Virus record (IMG/VR): IMGVR_UViG_3300006874_000158
Span: 1 to 22,552 of that record
Length of the DNA: 22,552 nucleotides
Direction: 5' to 3' (one strand)
Origin: a virus
The notes beneath the pieces are model-generated. The model had not been told where the DNA came from. It was given only the letters and a program-made list of their open reading frames with translations, and did not search any database. Made by a program: the position numbers and the translations under genes. Positions 4,123 to 18,580 of the stretch are shown here, one piece after another. The first letter of the stretch is position 1; each line of letters begins with the position of its first letter.

Positions 4123-5469
4123 TCAGCTACTTGGTATTACCCATTTTGGTTTTACCACCAAGTCGTTTATGACATTAGAACTACCACGCCTGTCATAAAG
4201 AGGTGTTCTAGTCATGTCGAGTCCACCACCGATTTCTATATTTGGTGATATGGTTTCCACATCTGAATAATTCAATAATAGATTACCGCCTATTCTTATA
4301 TTCCCCCGCAGATGGGTTATGGATGATCGCATCATATCGAGTTTTCTGGCGACATACATTTCTCCTTGTGATGGGAATGTGGCATTCTCCACGCTGTTCA
4401 TGTCTAGATGACCGCCTATCCTAATTCCTTTTTCTGGGAATATGACATTTTTGGTGCCGGACAATACCAGATTGTTGTCAATGGTTAATGTGTCTTTCAT
4501 GATGACATCTACACAATCTTCCATATATAAGCCCCAATGCATTTTCGCCTTGGGCATTTTTATTTTTTTGAGACCTCTTGCATATATGTCTCCATAAACA
4601 GTTAGTTCACTTGGTAGTTCTGTGATGAGTGTGTTGCTTATATTCAAATCTCCATTTATTATTAGACCATTCGGCAACATTCTTATACTGGTGTTGGCGA
4701 GGTCCAAATTTCCAGAAAATGTTTTTTCCCATTCATATAAAGTGGATGGTTCATGAGTTATCTTGAAAATGGTAGGCAGATCGTCTATTTGGCGCTCCCT
4801 CTCAAGGTATTTCATCATCTTATAAAACAAGGTGTTGCCGTAATCAACAGGGTTATCATCCTTGTCCATGAAATCATCACCACTATATTGATACTTTGTG
4901 CCTCTGTCATTTATGAAAATGAAGATATCATCAGCCTTATTGTATGTGTCGTAGTATCTACGGGTATTGCCAGTGGCAGTGCACCATTCAGTTCCGGAGC
5001 CAAGCTCACAGGAGGCATCATAGAGGTCTTCCCTGCCTTGAGGTATTTTATAAACATCAAAGCCCTCTACTTTACCCACCAGGAGACTTTTGTATTTGTC
5101 TTTTTTGGATTTGCCTGATGCCAGGGATGGGTTGCTTTTCTCCTGGTCTTTCAGAAAGAGTATTTCCTTCCTGAACAGGTAGACATCGTTCGCTGTTTTA
5201 TACTTATTGATATCAGAGTGATTAAAATCTCTCTTCCTTCTGTTGAAAATCTCAAGGTATTCTTTCCATTTATAGATATCTTCTGGTAATATGAACCCAT
5301 CAGCAACCTTTTTGGCCAACCAGATGGCATACGCAGTTTTACCGTTCGCAGCATCTATGATAGATGGGAATTCTGATTGAGGGATTTTACCAGTATCAAC
5401 AAACTGTCGCCTCACCCTCATGATGTTTATCTCATTGACGAATTGTTCAAATAATGGTAATCTTCTCAT
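4123..5469 (-). CDS. Phage protein with capsid-targeting-like N-terminus, GTEWCTA domain and C-terminal beta-repeats
   Basis: This 448-residue protein starts MRRLPLFEQFVNE, the module shared by many genes here (candidate capsid-targeting sequence with a possible prohead-protease site after VNE). Residues about 150-205 contain SGTEWCTATGN, YYDTYN and KYQYSGDDFMDKDD, a conserved block I recognise from uncharacterised phage proteins; I know no assigned activity. From about residue 250 to the end there are roughly eight irregular repeats of 20-25 residues (for example INGDLNISNTLITELPS, GGHLDMNSVENATFPS, IGGNLLLNYSDVETISPN) that look like a beta-solenoid or leucine-rich-like stack. The ATG overlaps the stop of the gene upstream as ATGA (5466-5469). 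I infer a structural or internal-head protein; function unknown. Confidence 0.75.
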   Translation of the reverse strand: MRRLPLFEQFVNEINIMRVRRQFVDTGKIPQSEFPSIIDAANGKTAYAIWLAKKVADGFILPEDIYKWKEYLEIFNRRKRDFNHSDINKYKTANDVYLFRKEILFLKDQEKSNPSLASGKSKKDKYKSLLVGKVEGFDVYKIPQGREDLYDASCELGSGTEWCTATGNTRRYYDTYNKADDIFIFINDRGTKYQYSGDDFMDKDDNPVDYGNTLFYKMMKYLERERQIDDLPTIFKITHEPSTLYEWEKTFSGNLDLANTSIRMLPNGLIINGDLNISNTLITELPSELTVYGDIYARGLKKIKMPKAKMHWGLYMEDCVDVIMKDTLTIDNNLVLSGTKNVIFPEKGIRIGGHLDMNSVENATFPSQGEMYVARKLDMMRSSITHLRGNIRIGGNLLLNYSDVETISPNIEIGGGLDMTRTPLYDRRGSSNVINDLVVKPKWVIPSS

Positions 5470-5915
5470 GAGTATTTGAGTCTTTCATTGAAATTTTCGT
5501 AATCTTGTTCCTCTATTAGGATCATGTCCGGAGAGAATTTAACATTTGGTATTTTGGTGAAAGTGTACCCAGCACCAGTTTCGTAGTTCCTAAATGGGAT
5601 GTCTATCTTAATGACTATTTGCTTTTCATCATCAACTGCATAGGCTGAGGTGTGATACTCGCTGGGTTCATATAGTGTTACACCGTCCATGCCCAGGTAG
5701 AGTTCAATACAATCAGTTATTTTTGCTGCGATATCATCACAAATACCTCCAGTACCATAGTACTCACAATACCCATCAACCTGTGTCCATCCGAAGTACA
5801 CCTCCTGCGCCTTGTCTATAACGCAGTCAATGAAGCGTTGGTTGTTTCTGATACTTTTCTCAAGAGGAGATTCGTACCAGCTTTCGTTGATGAATTGTTT
5901 GAATGAAGGTATCAT
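5466..5915 (-). CDS. Conserved phage protein with capsid-targeting-like N-terminus; possible Cys/His/Asp fold
   Basis: The 149-residue product begins MIPSFKQFINES, the closest match in the window to the T4 internal-protein propeptide (MKTYQEFIAE followed by Ala). The mature part has GTGGICDDIAAKITDCIE, then EYHTSAYAV, then KIDIPFRNYETGAGY. A Cys in a Gly-rich turn at a helix start, followed by a His strand and an Asp strand, is the order seen in papain-like and transglutaminase-like hydrolases; this is pattern reading only. It is the first gene of a two-gene unit with the 448-residue protein (ATGA overlap). Could equally be a non-enzymatic internal head protein. Confidence 0.65.
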   Translation of the reverse strand: MIPSFKQFINESWYESPLEKSIRNNQRFIDCVIDKAQEVYFGWTQVDGYCEYYGTGGICDDIAAKITDCIELYLGMDGVTLYEPSEYHTSAYAVDDEKQIVIKIDIPFRNYETGAGYTFTKIPNVKFSPDMILIEEQDYENFNERLKYS

Positions 5916-6650: not shown

Positions 6651-7166
6651 ATGACCGAAATGCAAAAACTAGTAGAAAGAGTGGAAGCTCTGGAAGCAAG
6701 ATTCAAAAAACCCACCATCGATGTGGTATCCTTGTCTGGTAAACTCCCACAATATGAATCAGAAGGTGCAGCAGGGCTTGACCTGGAATACTATGGTGGG
6801 GAGGATGCAAAACCCATCGTATTCGAACCTGGAGAAAGAAAGCTCATCCCTACTGGTATATTTGTCTCCCTGGTTGATTGGGATCATTACGTTATGGCCA
6901 TTCGTCCTCGATCTGGTCTTGCTATCAGAGAAGGATTCACTGTTCTCAACTCCCCAGGCACCATCGACTCTGATTACAGAGGCGAGATAAAGGTGATAGG
7001 CATCAACCTGTCAAGGGAAACTGTTGTTATTCAGCCAGGAGAAAGATGTGCCCAGGCGGTCATTCATCGCCAAGTGCAGATCGGATGGAACCAGTTGAGT
7101 TCTGTAGAGCTTCTTTCAGACACTAAGAGAGGGGATGGTGGTTTCGGTCACACCGGAAAGAGCTAA
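6651..7166 (+). CDS. dut: dUTP diphosphatase (dUTPase)
   Basis: All five motifs of trimeric dUTPases are present in order in 171 residues: GAAGLDL (39-45), RPRSGLAI (85-92), NSPGTIDSDYRGEI (100-113, with the catalytic Asp106), ERCAQAVI (131-138) and the glycine-rich RGDGGFGHTG (160-169). The enzyme converts dUTP to dUMP, keeping uracil out of phage DNA and feeding dTMP synthesis. The first 20 residues (MTEMQKLVERVEALEARF) form an amphipathic heptad helix not found in short bacterial enzymes; it may be a trimerising or docking extension. The A-rich leader before the ATG lacks a strong Shine-Dalgarno. The last bases overlap the stop of the opposite-strand gene (7163-7165). Confidence 0.93.
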   Translation: MTEMQKLVERVEALEARFKKPTIDVVSLSGKLPQYESEGAAGLDLEYYGGEDAKPIVFEPGERKLIPTGIFVSLVDWDHYVMAIRPRSGLAIREGFTVLNSPGTIDSDYRGEIKVIGINLSRETVVIQPGERCAQAVIHRQVQIGWNQLSSVELLSDTKRGDGGFGHTGKS

Positions 7167-7531
7167 CCCTGAAATCCGTATCTATGATCATATGAGCATC
7201 GTCTAATGGCGATGCTTTTTGCTTTTTCAGACATCCCTTCATGAAATTCTCTCCCATTGTACATCTCCTCACCATAAGCCTTTATGTCCTCTATCTCTCC
7301 TGTGATGTCGTAGTACCTTCCCTTGATCTTTGTCACTACATGCTCTATTAGGGTATCCTCATAACCGAAATAGCAGGGGATGGCCTCTGGGAACGCTGTC
7401 TTGAGTATCTTGTATAGCCTGTAACATCCACCATTGGTAAATATGAATTCAGCGTACCAAATAGTACGCTGATTCCTTATTGTTATTTTACCTGCTGAAT
7501 GCCTTATGGCCTGGATGAGTGAAAGTATCAC
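7163..7531 (-). CDS. Small protein with possible papain-like Cys-His-Asp arrangement
   Basis: From a GTG start at 7531 the product has 122 residues. FTNGGCYRLYKILKTAFPEA (Cys36), LIEHVVTKIKGRYYDITGEI (His64, Asp75) gives Cys at a helix start, then His and Asp on consecutive strands, the order of NlpC/transglutaminase-like hydrolases. This is pattern recognition, not a family match. The GTG overlaps the upstream stop (GTGA), and AAGGAG (7543-7548) lies 11 bases before it, one of the few clear Shine-Dalgarno sequences in the window. That AAGGAG is itself inside the FKEF codons of the upstream C-terminal motif. Coupled to the large gene upstream, so the two products are expected to work or be packaged together. 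Confidence 0.6.
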   Translation of the reverse strand: MILSLIQAIRHSAGKITIRNQRTIWYAEFIFTNGGCYRLYKILKTAFPEAIPCYFGYEDTLIEHVVTKIKGRYYDITGEIEDIKAYGEEMYNGREFHEGMSEKAKSIAIRRCSYDHRYGFQG

Positions 7532-8820
7532 AATATGCAGAACTCCTTAAACGATGGTAACCTATGGCTTTCGTTCTTTTTCTTGGGGAACCATTTGGTG
7601 AATGATCTCTTCACCTCGGGGGATGTATTCAAGTTGAAGGTGGCCTGGGTTGGATAACCTGTTCTTGATGGTATTCTGAGCTTTATTATGGGCATCTTAT
7701 ACCAAGCTTCTGCTGCCACATATTCAGAGTCTTTCCTGATGACATTGTATTTGGTGGGAACCCCTGCAGGTATACCACCCACAACAATGGAATCAGGTCT
7801 CTTAGAGTATTCTATGATGTTCTCTATGGTCTGCCTCAGCACTTGGTCGTCCAACATCCATAGACTTTCCACCACCTTGTGTCTATGATCCCTTTCGAGT
7901 GGGTGATAGAATTTGTCGCCTTTTGAATCTCTGTAATGACTAACATCCTTGAATCTCTCTATGAGAGGTGCAAGCATATCAAAGAAGATTTTTGCCTGCT
8001 GATATGCTTGTTTATTGGTTCTACTCATAGCCTCATAAACGTTTTCAGTTTTATTGTGTAATTCTTCTAGGGTGTCTGTGTATACCATTTCTCCGGTCTC
8101 CTCATCCTCTATTTCAAATCCGCTTCCATGGCTGAATTCTGGAAACCTGGGGTCAGATATGTCGTTGCCCAGGAATATGACTTGGTATTCTTCGTCACCA
8201 TGGTGCCAAATGCGCACCGCATCTTTCACCTTGAATGAGATGAGATGGCTTCCATATTTGTAACCGTTGCCCTTTGTGCCATATTTCTTGAAATCACGCT
8301 CGGTATATCCAAAAACAAAACCTCCCTTTTTGTGGGTCATTGTTCTGTTGAAACGGGTGGTGTATGCCAACTGTGTGAAATCCGTGACTCCGTGGAACCC
8401 ACCATGACTAATGGCATCATGAGGAAAATCTGAGGCTCTGATCACATAAACATCTTCCAATTTTTCTGGAGAATCCATGAAATACCACGCTGGGATATCA
8501 GTCTCATGAACACCTCCATTGGCCATGAAATTGCTTATGTTCTTTATGAGCCATTTCCCGAAATCTTCCACCAGATGTTCATGCTTTTCTATACCGTCCA
8601 GTAGGTTTATGATTTCGTATGATTCCATGTCCTCAGTGAGCGCTATTATTTCTGGTTTGTTCATGGCATCGAATTCATCCTCAAACCAGTCCTCCCAGTA
8701 ATAATGCAGAGAATATGCAGCATCTTGCGCCTTTTGTTGGTCTGTCATGGACAGGTAATCCACCACTGCATCGAGGTCTTGCTTGTCCAGATTTTCCAGT
8801 ATGTTAGTTCTCCGAGGCAT
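7528..8820 (-). CDS. Large phage protein with possible ADP-ribosyltransferase-like segment and C-terminal targeting-like motif
   Basis: This 430-residue protein is not assigned with confidence. An acidic helical N-terminus (1-100) precedes a segment (about 122-220) with VYVIRASDF (Arg128), ISHGGFHGVTDF, GGFVFGYT, YGSHLISFKVKD and HHGDEEYQVIFLG. An early Arg strand and a late GDEEYQVIF strand are reminiscent of ADP-ribosyltransferases (Arg ... Ser/Tyr ... ExE); T4 Alt is a packaged enzyme of that type. The remainder (265-430) is unrecognised. It ends KKKNESHRLPSFKEFCIL, a copy of the RLPxFxxF module found at the N-termini of other proteins here. Its stop overlaps the next GTG. AAATAAATA lies eight bases before the ATG. 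Gene is certain; enzymatic reading is speculative. Confidence 0.6.
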   Translation of the reverse strand: MPRRTNILENLDKQDLDAVVDYLSMTDQQKAQDAAYSLHYYWEDWFEDEFDAMNKPEIIALTEDMESYEIINLLDGIEKHEHLVEDFGKWLIKNISNFMANGGVHETDIPAWYFMDSPEKLEDVYVIRASDFPHDAISHGGFHGVTDFTQLAYTTRFNRTMTHKKGGFVFGYTERDFKKYGTKGNGYKYGSHLISFKVKDAVRIWHHGDEEYQVIFLGNDISDPRFPEFSHGSGFEIEDEETGEMVYTDTLEELHNKTENVYEAMSRTNKQAYQQAKIFFDMLAPLIERFKDVSHYRDSKGDKFYHPLERDHRHKVVESLWMLDDQVLRQTIENIIEYSKRPDSIVVGGIPAGVPTKYNVIRKDSEYVAAEAWYKMPIIKLRIPSRTGYPTQATFNLNTSPEVKRSFTKWFPKKKNESHRLPSFKEFCIL

Positions 8821-10080: not shown

Positions 10081-10443
10081 TTAAATGTCCGCTTCGTTGG
10101 CAAATAGCCAATTGTAGAAAGAAGGTGGTTCATCACCCATCATGAAGACCTTGCCGTATTTATCCACGCTTTCTTTGAAGAATGCTGCCACTGCTGCTAC
10201 GAGTTCGATGTGAGAGGTGAACCCTGTGACTGCTGCATCATACATCAACGCCTCAATGATCTTGCGGAACACTTGATCAAGTATCCATCCGGAAGATTCT
10301 GATGGGCTGATACCAGCAGGATAAGTCTCCTGGAACGCCATGATGATGGTTTTGATGTTCTTTGTGAGGTTGTCAGATGTTGCCATCATGGCAGGATTCT
10401 TTGTAGCGAATTGCTCGAACATTGGGAGCCTGTTTTTCTTCAT
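10081..10443 (-). CDS. Small phage protein with capsid-targeting-like N-terminus
   Basis: The 120-residue protein starts MKKNRLPMFEQFATKN, sharing the RLPxFEQF module, though without the Asn-Glu cleavage-like pair seen in several relatives. The rest is helical and unrecognised (NIKTIIMAFQETYP, WILDQVFRKIIEALMYDAA, ELVAAVAAFFKESVDKYG), ending PPSFYNWLFANEADI. The start overlaps the previous stop as ATGA (10440-10443). It is the last gene of an operon ended by the terminator at 10013-10039. A packaged internal-head protein is inferred only from the N-terminal module. Confidence 0.65.
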   Translation of the reverse strand: MKKNRLPMFEQFATKNPAMMATSDNLTKNIKTIIMAFQETYPAGISPSESSGWILDQVFRKIIEALMYDAAVTGFTSHIELVAAVAAFFKESVDKYGKVFMMGDEPPSFYNWLFANEADI

Positions 10444-11240
10444 CTTTTTACAAATTCAATTTCTTTATCTTTATTTATTGTTTCTATGATTTTTGGATTC
10501 TGGAGATGTTCTTCGAAAATCTCAATACAAACGTATTCTTCACCTGCAGCGATAGCAGCTTTTAACCTGTGGTTGGAATCTCTTATCTGGATGTCGATGT
10601 TGCCCAGGTCTCCCTCACCTTTCTTTATACCTTCCAACATCTCCAGTTGGAAATTCATCCACACATCAAATGCTTCCATGTCTTCCTCATCATCATGGTA
10701 TGGAGTGTCTTTCCACAATTCTTTGATGAGTTCAGGTGACTTCCCATACTTCACGATGTCGAGCCTGTGCTTCGAGAAAAACGCTTCTGTTTCCCTGTAA
10801 ACGCTCGGCCACATAAGCTTCTCGATTATCAGTTCAAAATCCTCCTGGCCCAGGTAGTAGTCCCAATCCTCATCTCCAGTGCTTGCGGGTACACTCAAAC
10901 CATAGTCATGGGAGAGGTAGCCACCAATGTGGGCCGCTTGCTGCTCAATAACGTCTATGATTTCAATGACAGAAGCAAATGCATATGAGCACTCCACATC
11001 CACCCTTTCTCCTCTCCAGTCAGCTTCTTTGAAGAAGTTCTTGAACCTTTCCACTTTCTCAGGATAGAAGATGTTATCAACCCTGTGGTTGATGCGATCT
11101 TTATGGACCACCACCATTTGCCTGGGGTCGCCCCACCAGCGAATCATCCTGGTATCATGAAAGACGCGATGCTTTTTGGTTTCCTCGGGCATTTCATACC
11201 CAGGGTCGAACTCTTCAAATATTGGTAGTCTATTGCTCAT
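10440..11240 (-). CDS. Phage protein with capsid-targeting-like N-terminus and ParB-like motif
   Basis: I place the start at the ATG at 11240 (266 residues) because it yields MSNRLPIFEEFDPG, the shared module; a longer frame reaches 11339 but overlaps the upstream gene. The mid-region is acidic and aromatic and unrecognised. Residues about 215-245 read IQIRDSNHRLKAAIAAGEEYVCIEI, close to the ParB/sulfiredoxin-fold signature (D-G-x-HR-x-x-A-A ... G), where the Arg/His loop binds nucleotide in CTP- or ATP-using relatives. The usual first strand and Gly-Asn are not clear, so it may be a divergent or partial ParB-like domain. The Asp at the usual Gly site is replaced by Ser. Function unknown. Confidence 0.65.
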   Translation of the reverse strand: MSNRLPIFEEFDPGYEMPEETKKHRVFHDTRMIRWWGDPRQMVVVHKDRINHRVDNIFYPEKVERFKNFFKEADWRGERVDVECSYAFASVIEIIDVIEQQAAHIGGYLSHDYGLSVPASTGDEDWDYYLGQEDFELIIEKLMWPSVYRETEAFFSKHRLDIVKYGKSPELIKELWKDTPYHDDEEDMEAFDVWMNFQLEMLEGIKKGEGDLGNIDIQIRDSNHRLKAAIAAGEEYVCIEIFEEHLQNPKIIETINKDKEIEFVKR

Positions 11241-11280
11241 TGTTTTTGAATTCTTCAAATAAAGGTAGTGACTGTTTTGT
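11233..11280 (-). other. Targeting-like peptide in frame after a stop codon (TKQSLPLFEEFKNNEQ)
   Basis: Directly after the TAA of the repeat protein (11283-11281) the same frame stays open for 16 codons and spells another copy of the LPxFEEF module, ending at TAG (11232-11230). It has no good start codon of its own. It may be a readthrough extension, or the remnant of a duplicated module: 21 bases at 11248-11268 match 18 of 21 bases of the MSNRLPIFEEF coding segment at 11208-11228. Confidence 0.5.
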
Positions 11281-12192
11281 TTACATTGGTATAGATTGAA
11301 ATTGCTCGAAGTCATCTGTGTCTCCAGATGCGTCTGCAACGTTTATCATGACAGGATTGGCCAAATCCACTGTCAGCTTCAAATTAAGGCGTTTAGCTAC
11401 ATTGGGCAGTTCCTGGAGTCTGTCACCAAAATCAGAAGACTCATTTATCCGCTTCTTTGCTTGCTTGCCACCTTTTCTTTCGAACACCCCCTGCAGCTGC
11501 TCTGGACTCCATCCTTGCATGTTGCCGTTCCATAGAGTGTTACCATCAACATCCTCCAGGTAATAGGCATAGACCGTATCGCTTGTAAGATCGGTTTTGG
11601 ACACCATCATACCAATCTGGCCAGTGCTCTTCACCTTGTACTTCTGGCGAGTGTCATTGAGACGATTGTTTCTGAGGGTGATGTCACCTGCTACCGATCT
11701 TGGGAATCCCTGGAGATTGGTGAGCAGGTTGTCATCAGCATAGAAATCATCACCCACCACTTCTGGTGCACCATCCAATGAGGTGATTCTGTTATTGGAT
11801 ATGTTGAAGATACCAGGAACTTTCCTTGGGCAGCCCTGGAGATTGGTGAGTTTGTTATTGGCAACATTAAAATCCCTACCAACTTCTCTGGGGGCACCAA
11901 ATAGTGATGTGAGTCCACACCCATTGACGATGAAATCACCAGTCACTTTCCCGAACTGGAAAGGGAGTTGTCTCATCTCTTTATCAAACACCACCACTGA
12001 ACCAGTAACATCCACCACACCATCTGGAGAGATGTATGTTCCTGTTTTTCCTGGTATATCAGAAATCTCACCTCCGACTATATCGGAAGTCATCAGGTAA
12101 ATCCTGATACTCTCTGGATCAGTGAGGAAGGTGGAATTGCTTTCGTTCACTGAACGTCTTTTTTTGTTGGTTTCTCCGAATTTCTTAAGCAT
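11281..12192 (-). CDS. Leucine-rich-like repeat protein with capsid-targeting-like N-terminus
   Basis: The 303-residue protein starts MLKKFGE and has KKRRSVNESN at 10-19, so a gp21-type cut after VNE would free the rest. Residues about 75-185 hold four or five repeats of the form L-x-G-A-P-x-x-V-x-x-D-F-x-x-x-N-N-x-L-T-x-L (TSLFGAPREVGRDFNVANNK, LTNLQGCPRKV, ITSLDGAPEVVGDDF, LTNLQGFPRSV), a short leucine-rich-like repeat common in uncharacterised phage proteins. After a WNGNMQGWSPEQLQG segment there is a second KKRINESSDFG (247-256), another possible cut site. The protein ends DDFEQFQSIPM; a targeting-like peptide follows in frame beyond the stop. First gene of an operon downstream of the sheath terminator. 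Confidence 0.7.
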   Translation of the reverse strand: MLKKFGETNKKRRSVNESNSTFLTDPESIRIYLMTSDIVGGEISDIPGKTGTYISPDGVVDVTGSVVVFDKEMRQLPFQFGKVTGDFIVNGCGLTSLFGAPREVGRDFNVANNKLTNLQGCPRKVPGIFNISNNRITSLDGAPEVVGDDFYADDNLLTNLQGFPRSVAGDITLRNNRLNDTRQKYKVKSTGQIGMMVSKTDLTSDTVYAYYLEDVDGNTLWNGNMQGWSPEQLQGVFERKGGKQAKKRINESSDFGDRLQELPNVAKRLNLKLTVDLANPVMINVADASGDTDDFEQFQSIPM

Positions 12193-16069: not shown

Positions 16070-16561
16070 ATGGCACAAAATAACCGTTGGAATACCAGAA
16101 AAGTAGAGGAACTTATAGAGAATTACAAGCTCACTGGTGTCATACCCATGGTAAACCCATTTTGGAAGAGAAATCTTCAATGGAGAAAGCCAAACATAGT
16201 ATTCGAATACACCGAGGAGGAGATAGCGAAAATGGCCTATTATAATGACGATCCTGTGTCATTTGGCCAGAATGAATGTAAGGTGATGACGGATGATGGT
16301 GTGAAGAATGTGAAATTGAGGGACTATCAGATAGACCTTGTTAGGTCATTCAATGATTATCGTAGGAATGTTGTTATGGCCTCCAGGCAGTGCGGAAAGT
16401 GTGTGACATTTGATACAATGGTGGATGTCATATCTGCGGAAGGTAATGAAACAAAAATCCCGATATTCGAACTTCACTATTTAATGAAAGAACAAACATC
16501 GGGATTGAGTGCCGTAGACAAACTGAAACGATGGACTTATCGACAGTTGATGAAAAATTAA
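16070..16561 (+). CDS. 17: Large terminase N-terminal fragment fused to split-intein N-half
   Basis: Residues 1-110 resemble the N-terminal part of T4-type large terminase (gp17), the packaging ATPase: LRDYQIDLV (adenine-side motif) and VVMASRQCGK, matching the gp17 P-loop SRQLGKTT but stopping after the Lys. Residue 111 is Cys and starts CVTFDTMVDV, an intein block A, with IPIFEL further on; the ORF ends 53 residues into the intein at KLKRWTYRQLMKN. Beyond the stop only antisense genes follow, and no C-half intein or terminase remainder is in the window. I read this as a fractured gene whose product must join a partner by protein trans-splicing to rebuild GK-T. The terminase part is well supported; a decayed truncated gene is the alternative. 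The stop overlaps that of the convergent gene. Confidence 0.85.
   Translation: MAQNNRWNTRKVEELIENYKLTGVIPMVNPFWKRNLQWRKPNIVFEYTEEEIAKMAYYNDDPVSFGQNECKVMTDDGVKNVKLRDYQIDLVRSFNDYRRNVVMASRQCGKCVTFDTMVDVISAEGNETKIPIFELHYLMKEQTSGLSAVDKLKRWTYRQLMKN
16400..16558 (+). other. Split-intein N-terminal fragment (53 residues)
   Basis: Begins at the Cys codon TGT (16400-16402) right after the P-loop Lys codon. CxxxDTMVxV and the later IPIFEL fit intein block A; block B (TxxH) is absent, so it would have to lie on the partner. The end is basic and helical (AVDKLKRWTYRQL). At 53 residues it is shorter than usual split-intein N-halves (around 90-120) but longer than the about 25 residues of the atypically split AceL-TerL intein, also from a phage terminase. 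Confidence 0.8.
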
Positions 16562-17647: not shown

Positions 17648-18115
17648 TTAGAATAATCCTGAAAACTCGATTTCATTTTTAGAGAATATGAGGCTTATGT
17701 CCTCATCAAATTTTACACACTGGCCGTATTTCATGCCTGGAGGAACAGTGAATGCAGATTCTTCCTGGAGAGGAAAACATTTCATCTCACCTTTCTCTAC
17801 CAACAGTTTGGCTGTAAACACTTGCTGTGGTGTCAATTCAGACAAAGTGTAGATTTCATTAAGTTCTATTTCAACGAAATGATACCATCCACCCTCTGAT
17901 TGGTCTGAATAATCATTCCATTTTTCCATGAATTCCTTGGAGGTTCCACCAGCTCCTCTACAAGCCAGTACTATGGCCTGGGCATCTGCGTATTCCAATG
18001 TTTGGAAGTCATCGTTGGTGGGATCGATGTCCATTGAATAGAACGCGTTTTCGTTCATCTTCTTGGGTGATTTTTTTGATTTAGGGTTTTCCCCGAATTT
18101 TTTGAGTCTGTTCAT
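17648..18115 (-). CDS. Paralogous internal-head-like protein A2
   Basis: The 155-residue protein begins MNRLKKFGENPKSKKSPKK followed by MNENAFYSMDIDPTND, with a possible cut after MNE. It is the paralogue of the gene at 16558: DIDPTNDD against DINPSNLD, EFMEKWNDYSDQSEGGW against FRSDWEANDDKSEEAW, LTPQQVFTAKLLVEKGE against MTPQQVYILLTALEKK. No catalytic pattern is evident. It lies between two genes of the B type, separated by 12 and 6 bases, so an ancestral A-B pair may have been duplicated. Confidence 0.65.
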   Translation of the reverse strand: MNRLKKFGENPKSKKSPKKMNENAFYSMDIDPTNDDFQTLEYADAQAIVLACRGAGGTSKEFMEKWNDYSDQSEGGWYHFVEIELNEIYTLSELTPQQVFTAKLLVEKGEMKCFPLQEESAFTVPPGMKYGQCVKFDEDISLIFSKNEIEFSGLF

Positions 18116-18121
18116 TGTCTG

Positions 18122-18580
18122 TTATATTTGGTCAGTTAACACCATGTGCTCATCGAAAGGCTGTCTGCTGACGATTATCATGGCGATTGAAAGGTTTCTG
18201 CGATAGTCATATGATTGCGGAACCATAATCATGTCATTGTTTATTTTACCAATTTCCTGGAATGGGAAGTTGTCAGTGTTCTCATGCAACAATGTTACCT
18301 CTCCGTATCTGAGGGATTCTGCAAGCTCATACACCTTATCGTCATCCATATCGAGGTTGAGATCGACATTCATATGATCGCTGACATACCCACTGAACAT
18401 CTCTGCCAATTCTGCGGTTGCTGGGGCATCCTCTATGAGGCACATTTGTCTGAGGAAAAGAAGAAAGCTGGGAGGATAAGAATTAAATTGTCCGTTTATC
18501 ATATCAACCACACCAGCCAAATCCTCATTGATGGGTTTTTTGGATTCTGATATTTCCCCGAATTTTTTAAGTCTGCTCAT
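18122..18580 (-). CDS. Paralogous internal-head-like protein B2
   Basis: The 152-residue protein begins MSRLKKFGEISESKKPINED, giving the shared module, a short basic linker and a candidate cut after INE. The rest is acidic in the middle (DLNLDMDDDKVYELAES) and ends with VPQSYDYRRNLSIAMIIVS, which parallels the end of the gene at 17040. No known domain is recognised. An AATAAATA string lies 15 bases before the ATG and overlaps the end of the upstream gene. First of the four tandem paralogues. Confidence 0.65.
   Translation of the reverse strand: MSRLKKFGEISESKKPINEDLAGVVDMINGQFNSYPPSFLLFLRQMCLIEDAPATAELAEMFSGYVSDHMNVDLNLDMDDDKVYELAESLRYGEVTLLHENTDNFPFQEIGKINNDMIMVPQSYDYRRNLSIAMIIVSRQPFDEHMVLTDQI

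Follow-up and report, generated by a model that had tools for sequence, protein, structure and literature searches.

The C-terminus of an orphan protein and the gene that follows it

The window, by which we mean the whole 22,552-nucleotide stretch analyzed here (positions 1 to 22,552 of IMG/VR record IMGVR_UViG_3300006874_000158), contains a 430-aa orphan ORF whose C-terminus reads ...PKKKNESHRLPSFKEFCIL, that is, NESHRLPSFKEFCIL or, in another extent, ...EVKRSFTKWFPKKKNESHRLPSFKEFCIL. The features of this region are listed below; the arrow marks a putative cleavage position here and throughout.

7528..8820, minus strand: orphan ORF of 430 aa with a C-terminal module; it has no N-terminal module and starts MPRRTNILENLDK
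7567..7575, minus strand: N-E-S adjoining the core on its upstream side, a putative prohead-protease site (E↓S) with predicted cleavage and an atypical K at P3
7540..7563, minus strand: targeting-like core RLPSFKEF, C-terminal, read from the sequence; profile score 19.0
7543..7548, minus strand: AAGGAG, which encodes K-E in the module and resembles a Shine-Dalgarno site, possibly for the next gene, whose GTG lies 11 nt further on
7528..7539, minus strand: tail CIL and the stop codon TGA, which shares bases with the start codon GTG of the following gene (GTGA)
7163..7531, minus strand: next gene, a complete YunG-like protein of 122 aa (PF24591, E = 2.4e-17) with no module

The first-pass annotation had described the end of the 430-aa protein as an RLPxFxxF module also present at N-termini in the window, and this is what we read in the sequence. 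Its remark that the GTG of the next ORF overlaps the stop codon (7528-7530) by four bases is likewise borne out. The core lies three residues from the C-terminus, not at the N-terminus as in a T4-type capsid targeting sequence (CTS), and its SFKEF segment carries the aromatic residues at positions 4 and 7 that are characteristic of a CTS.

We searched for relatives of the 430-aa protein in phage records, IMG/VR, GTDB genomes and the related records and found no homologue, and a separate search with its 127-aa middle region gave the same result. A 735-kb phage yielded only weak matches (E = 0.004), and comparisons with Pfam, PHROGs, NCBIfam, PADLOC and the sequences of the PDB returned sub-threshold matches only. 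The structure prediction had a pLDDT of 32. For the middle region (VYVIRASDF...GDEEYQVIF) we considered an arrangement of the ADP-ribosyltransferase type, like that of T4 Alt; it found no support in the searches and is not claimed.

Two origins had been proposed for the module in the first-pass annotation: a signal that is active at the C-terminus as well, or a piece of the next gene that a frameshift had moved. The four-base overlap of the two reading frames is compatible with the second proposal, in which the module is the former N-terminus of gene 7163-7531, moved by a frameshift or an assembly error. However, that gene encodes a full YunG-like protein (63 bits against PF24591, compared with a curated cut-off of 27), and its homologues in phiH2 and GN1 have no module and start at nearly the same position, to within a few residues. 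YunG-like proteins carrying the module were sought and none was found. In addition, a stop codon closes the frame of gene 7163-7531 five codons before its GTG, and in the frame of the module no start codon occurs from codon 403 to the core at codon 420 (15 codons upstream); because of these two features, at least a frameshift plus the loss of a start codon would be needed. Finally, C-terminal modules recur beside other neighbors in other contigs. We therefore regard a displaced N-terminus as having a practically negligible probability. The first proposal fared better, since C-terminal copies recur, are conserved in unrelated families and usually have E↓S on their N-terminal side, as described below.

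N-terminal modules and a candidate protease site

Several other ORFs of the window begin with a module of the same kind:

5431..5469, minus strand: N-terminal module MRRLPLFEQFVNE of the 448-aa ORF 4123-5469, read from the sequence
5880..5915, minus strand: N-terminal module MIPSFKQFINES of the 149-aa ORF 5466-5915, read from the sequence
10408..10443, minus strand: N-terminal module MKKNRLPMFEQF of the 120-aa ORF 10081-10443, read from the sequence
11208..11240, minus strand: N-terminal module MSNRLPIFEEF, within ORF 10440-11339
17648..18580, minus strand: ORFs 17648-18115 and 18122-18580, with the RLKKFGE flavor, a basic linker and [IM]NE

ORF 10440-11339 probably begins in fact at the ATG at 11240, because the module directly follows this codon. 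The second flavor (RLKKFGE, a basic linker and [IVM]NE, with variants) begins four further ORFs of the window, with similar starts at 12192 (MLKKFGE...SVNES) and 17031 (KLQKFESF...AINEN).

We scanned IMG/VR with the exact pattern M-x-x-[IL]P-x-F-x-[EQ]-F-[VI]-N-E, and in most of the contigs retrieved the match lay at or near a protein start. Reading whole contigs, which are fragments and in which genes were called as the longest non-overlapping ORFs, yielded about a hundred N-terminal modules. The N-terminal design of this phage group, M-x(1-4)-[IL]-[PK]-[ST]-F-x-[EQ]-F-[ILV]-N-E↓[SAGN], is abundant in the related contigs. In the three columns that follow the core, which the search left unconstrained, 104 N-terminal modules have I/L/V (92), N (66) and E (84), respectively. 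The RLPxF form is not used in the relatives identified by tail sheath, MaF61 (the closest isolate), Lak and the 735-kb phage, and querying annotated phages with the module peptide alone gave nothing useful. The megaphages LR756501 (L006, L016) and LR745206 (L028) have diverged N-terminal forms (MIKKYNTYINEG, LVKNYSTYINEA and MKYLKLFNES), which are probably the same signal.

Among 25 related records, an S77 prohead protease (PF03420) scored above the cut-off in 16 and gp23 (PF07068) in 18. The window, a fragment, encodes a T4-like terminase large subunit (TerL) and a tail sheath, and neither an S77-type prohead protease nor a gp23-type capsid protein was found within its 22.5 kb. In related contigs (L248-L259), protease and scaffold form a single ORF of ~630 aa, most of which have an [RS]VNE↓[SA] site directly after the protease domain. 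The pattern [VILM]NE[SAGN] occurs 6.3 times per 1000 aa in these protease-scaffold ORFs vs 0.51 in the interiors of other proteins, a 12-fold difference. From such sequence comparisons, and independently of the module, we infer that [ILV]-N-E↓[SAGN] is the protease site of this phage group. The KNE↓S of the 430-aa protein fits this site at P2, P1 and P1΄ but not at P3, and because P3 is K rather than an aliphatic residue, a cut in this protein is uncertain.

We then asked how exceptional the C-terminal match is. A log-odds profile was trained on 101 N-terminal modules taken only from the contigs of other phages, and with this foreign profile the C-terminus of the 430-aa protein scored 19.0, the highest of 1,809 C-termini. 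Shuffled C-termini (36,180) never reached this score, and interior windows did so once in 22,623; the window's own RLPxF/IPSF N-terminal modules, with scores of 15.7-20.4, bracket it. With an earlier profile that included the window's modules, none of 200,000 random 25-mers attained the score of the target.

These figures bear on the possibility that RLPSFKEF is the chance end of an orphan ORF, aided by the Shine-Dalgarno sequence of the next gene. The protein is indeed an orphan, and the distance from AAGGAG to the GTG at 7531 is 11 nt. However, a Shine-Dalgarno sequence would account for K-E alone, and no shuffled C-terminus matched the score. Furthermore, the R before LP is specific to this phage: three of the N-terminal modules in the window have it as well, and in other phages N or H is usual at this place. 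A chance origin thus appears improbable.

C-terminal copies in other proteins

A retrieval with the spacing pattern of the window's C-terminus returned 15 contigs, among which L118 offered the sole convincing C-terminus. Because this lone match could be due to chance, we carried out a wider survey with the profile. Scores of at least 12 were obtained for 10 of 1,809 C-termini vs 19 of 22,623 interior windows, and several of these 19 are modules inside fused RNA-ligase-like proteins. The 10 C-terminal matches represent five unrelated families, although most C-terminal examples come from a single RNA-ligase-like family. An endolysin match (G034, LDDRIKHFNEY), which looks like an ordinary part of the enzyme, is probably fortuitous.

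A nucleotidyltransferase-like protein of 323 aa (L118, G022), named by eye from its GSVGKKPTSGDIDLAID motif with no family model matching, ends KLNES-KVLPGFKEF-LTENDV, and a 44%-identical homologue of G022 in Flavobacterium phage immuto stops before this tag. A homologous pair of 152 and 153 aa ends VNEGSSS-HTKTFIQF-LIQD and IYES-HRALSFDQF-INS. Most C-terminal copies have E-S in front of the core, so that the order is reversed relative to the N-terminal design (site-core vs core-site).

The RNA-ligase-like family, a tentative name given that PF09414 matches only at E = 0.06, is encoded at 54 IMG/VR loci. Its members of 406-408 aa carry the module at the C-terminus (e.g. KES-SFPTFEEF and GES-NSFPTYEEF); among the short members, the core stands at the end in 10 of 10 and E-S directly precedes it in 9 of 10. 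In many contigs (L147-L190) the RNA-ligase-like protein is fused to an NMNAT/cytidylyltransferase domain, and the module and a protease-like site lie between the two domains. Some fused members have the core at the new C-terminus (G012, TAES-HLMTFEQF-ITKL; L179, ETEASTDVLTFEQF); in others it remains at the end of the ligase domain and is now internal (VYEG-LFPSFSEF, LNEA-FFPTFNQF). The head protease might cut the fused protein into two enzymes. Across 32 distinct members with a core and an upstream E[SGANT], P3, which the search did not ask for, is V/I/L in 29 against a background of 0.22, with the reservation that these members are related and do not represent independent events.

We also considered that the C-terminal peptide is a real short linear motif for an assembly partner, which would remain uncut and serve no propeptide loading but might anchor the protein at the scaffold or keep it inactive. 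This would suit the K at P3 in the window, the presence of a core without a convincing upstream E↓S in L138 and in a 646/583-aa pair (G037/G033), and the tail after the core that the short RNA-ligase-like proteins have kept as a clade (KIKD/KIQD); for Alt, too, the C-terminal propeptide is given as having no known role (PMC5694885). On the other hand, E-S or an equivalent precedes most C-terminal copies, and the preference for V/I/L at P3 in the RNA-ligase-like members is what a protease site demands. We consider an uncut motif unlikely, though deserving some weight.

Another reading takes the peptide for a sliding-clamp-binding motif that merely resembles a CTS, like the C-termini of the T4 polymerase and late sigma factor. 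The carriers do include nucleic-acid enzymes (RNA-ligase-like and nucleotidyltransferase-like proteins), but the polymerase C-termini of MaF61 and of related contigs differ (...SLAYTVSLF, ...LF), and the upstream E↓S site would be left unexplained. Clamp binding is, in our view, very unlikely.

A probable capsid targeting sequence at the other protein end

The tail of the 430-aa protein is thus, on balance, best read as a C-terminal CTS of the T4 kind, a reading that we hold with some confidence; observations against it are the K at P3, a position at which I/L/V prevails in N-terminal modules, the concentration of C-terminal examples in one RNA-ligase-like family, the probably fortuitous endolysin match and the lack of the module in MaF61. 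Loading can probably be directed from either end of a protein. In its C-terminal form it would keep the aromatic core (x-P-x-F-x-E-F) with a protease-like site (x-E↓S) in front. Inside the prohead, the core would attach the protein to the scaffold, the protease would then cut between E and S and free the mature protein inside the head, and this protein would stay there until it is ejected with the DNA. We infer capsid entry, cleavage and the application of both to the 430-aa protein from the motifs and their distribution. More tentatively, the CTS may be position-independent throughout this phage group, standing at the N-terminus with the site after it, or at the C-terminus or an internal domain boundary with the site before it. 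The cargo would then include the RNA-ligase-like/NMNAT enzyme, injected as a repair kit, the fused form of which would possibly be cut in the head into two enzymes.

The T4 internal proteins offer the closest comparison. IPII and IPIII start MKTYQEFIAE↓A and IPI starts MKTFKEF. Mutational work on IPIII assigned targeting to residues 4 and 7 and processing to residues 8 and 10 (PMC9026906), and the targeting and processing positions of the group's N-terminal module are those of IPIII. The three proteins share with this module two aromatic residues three positions apart (Y4 and F7 in T4), an [EQ] before the second aromatic and an aliphatic-x-E site, and a T4-type protease and gp23 are encoded in the related contigs. 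However, the CTS of T4 is N-terminal and its site ([LI]-x-E) follows the core, whereas the core in the window is C-terminal, with the site before it and K at P3.

C-terminal propeptides also have precedents. T4 Alt is a head protein from which gp21, the prohead protease, removes 63 C-terminal residues at LTE-619; this propeptide is longer than the tail described here, has no clear PxFx[EQ]F core, and its role in targeting was left open by the authors (PMC5694885). The prohead protease gp245 of SPN3US similarly loses a C-terminal propeptide during head maturation (PMC10052503), but this is autocleavage of a protease, which removes 64 residues at an A-x-E site and involves no common peptide core. 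The ejected protein DarB of P1 is likewise directed to the head by a terminal peptide, which is also effective on a reporter (PMC9024508), although this peptide is N-terminal, comprises 10-30 residues and is unrelated in sequence.

In the T4 head-assembly literature, CTSs are N-terminal propeptides, and the role of the C-terminal one of Alt is left open (PMC5694885). The C-terminal signature described here is searchable and could be used to predict injected proteins that escape N-terminal scans, and the question of whether the signal works from the other end becomes directly testable. If the proposal is true, it would provide a C-terminal tag for loading cargo that needs a free N-terminus.

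Two split genes were also observed. At 16070-16561 on the plus strand, the window encodes the N-terminus of a T4-like terminase large subunit that matches the TerL of many phages; its Walker A region reads SRQCGK-CVTFDTMVDV and a stop codon follows about 55 residues later. This looks like an N-intein-like block in a split terminase gene, and no intein match was obtained in NCBIfam or Pfam. In several related contigs (G004, G005, G006, G009, G023 and G030), the DNA polymerase gene is divided between ORFs of ~460 and ~398 aa, the second of which ends in an ...LF peptide.
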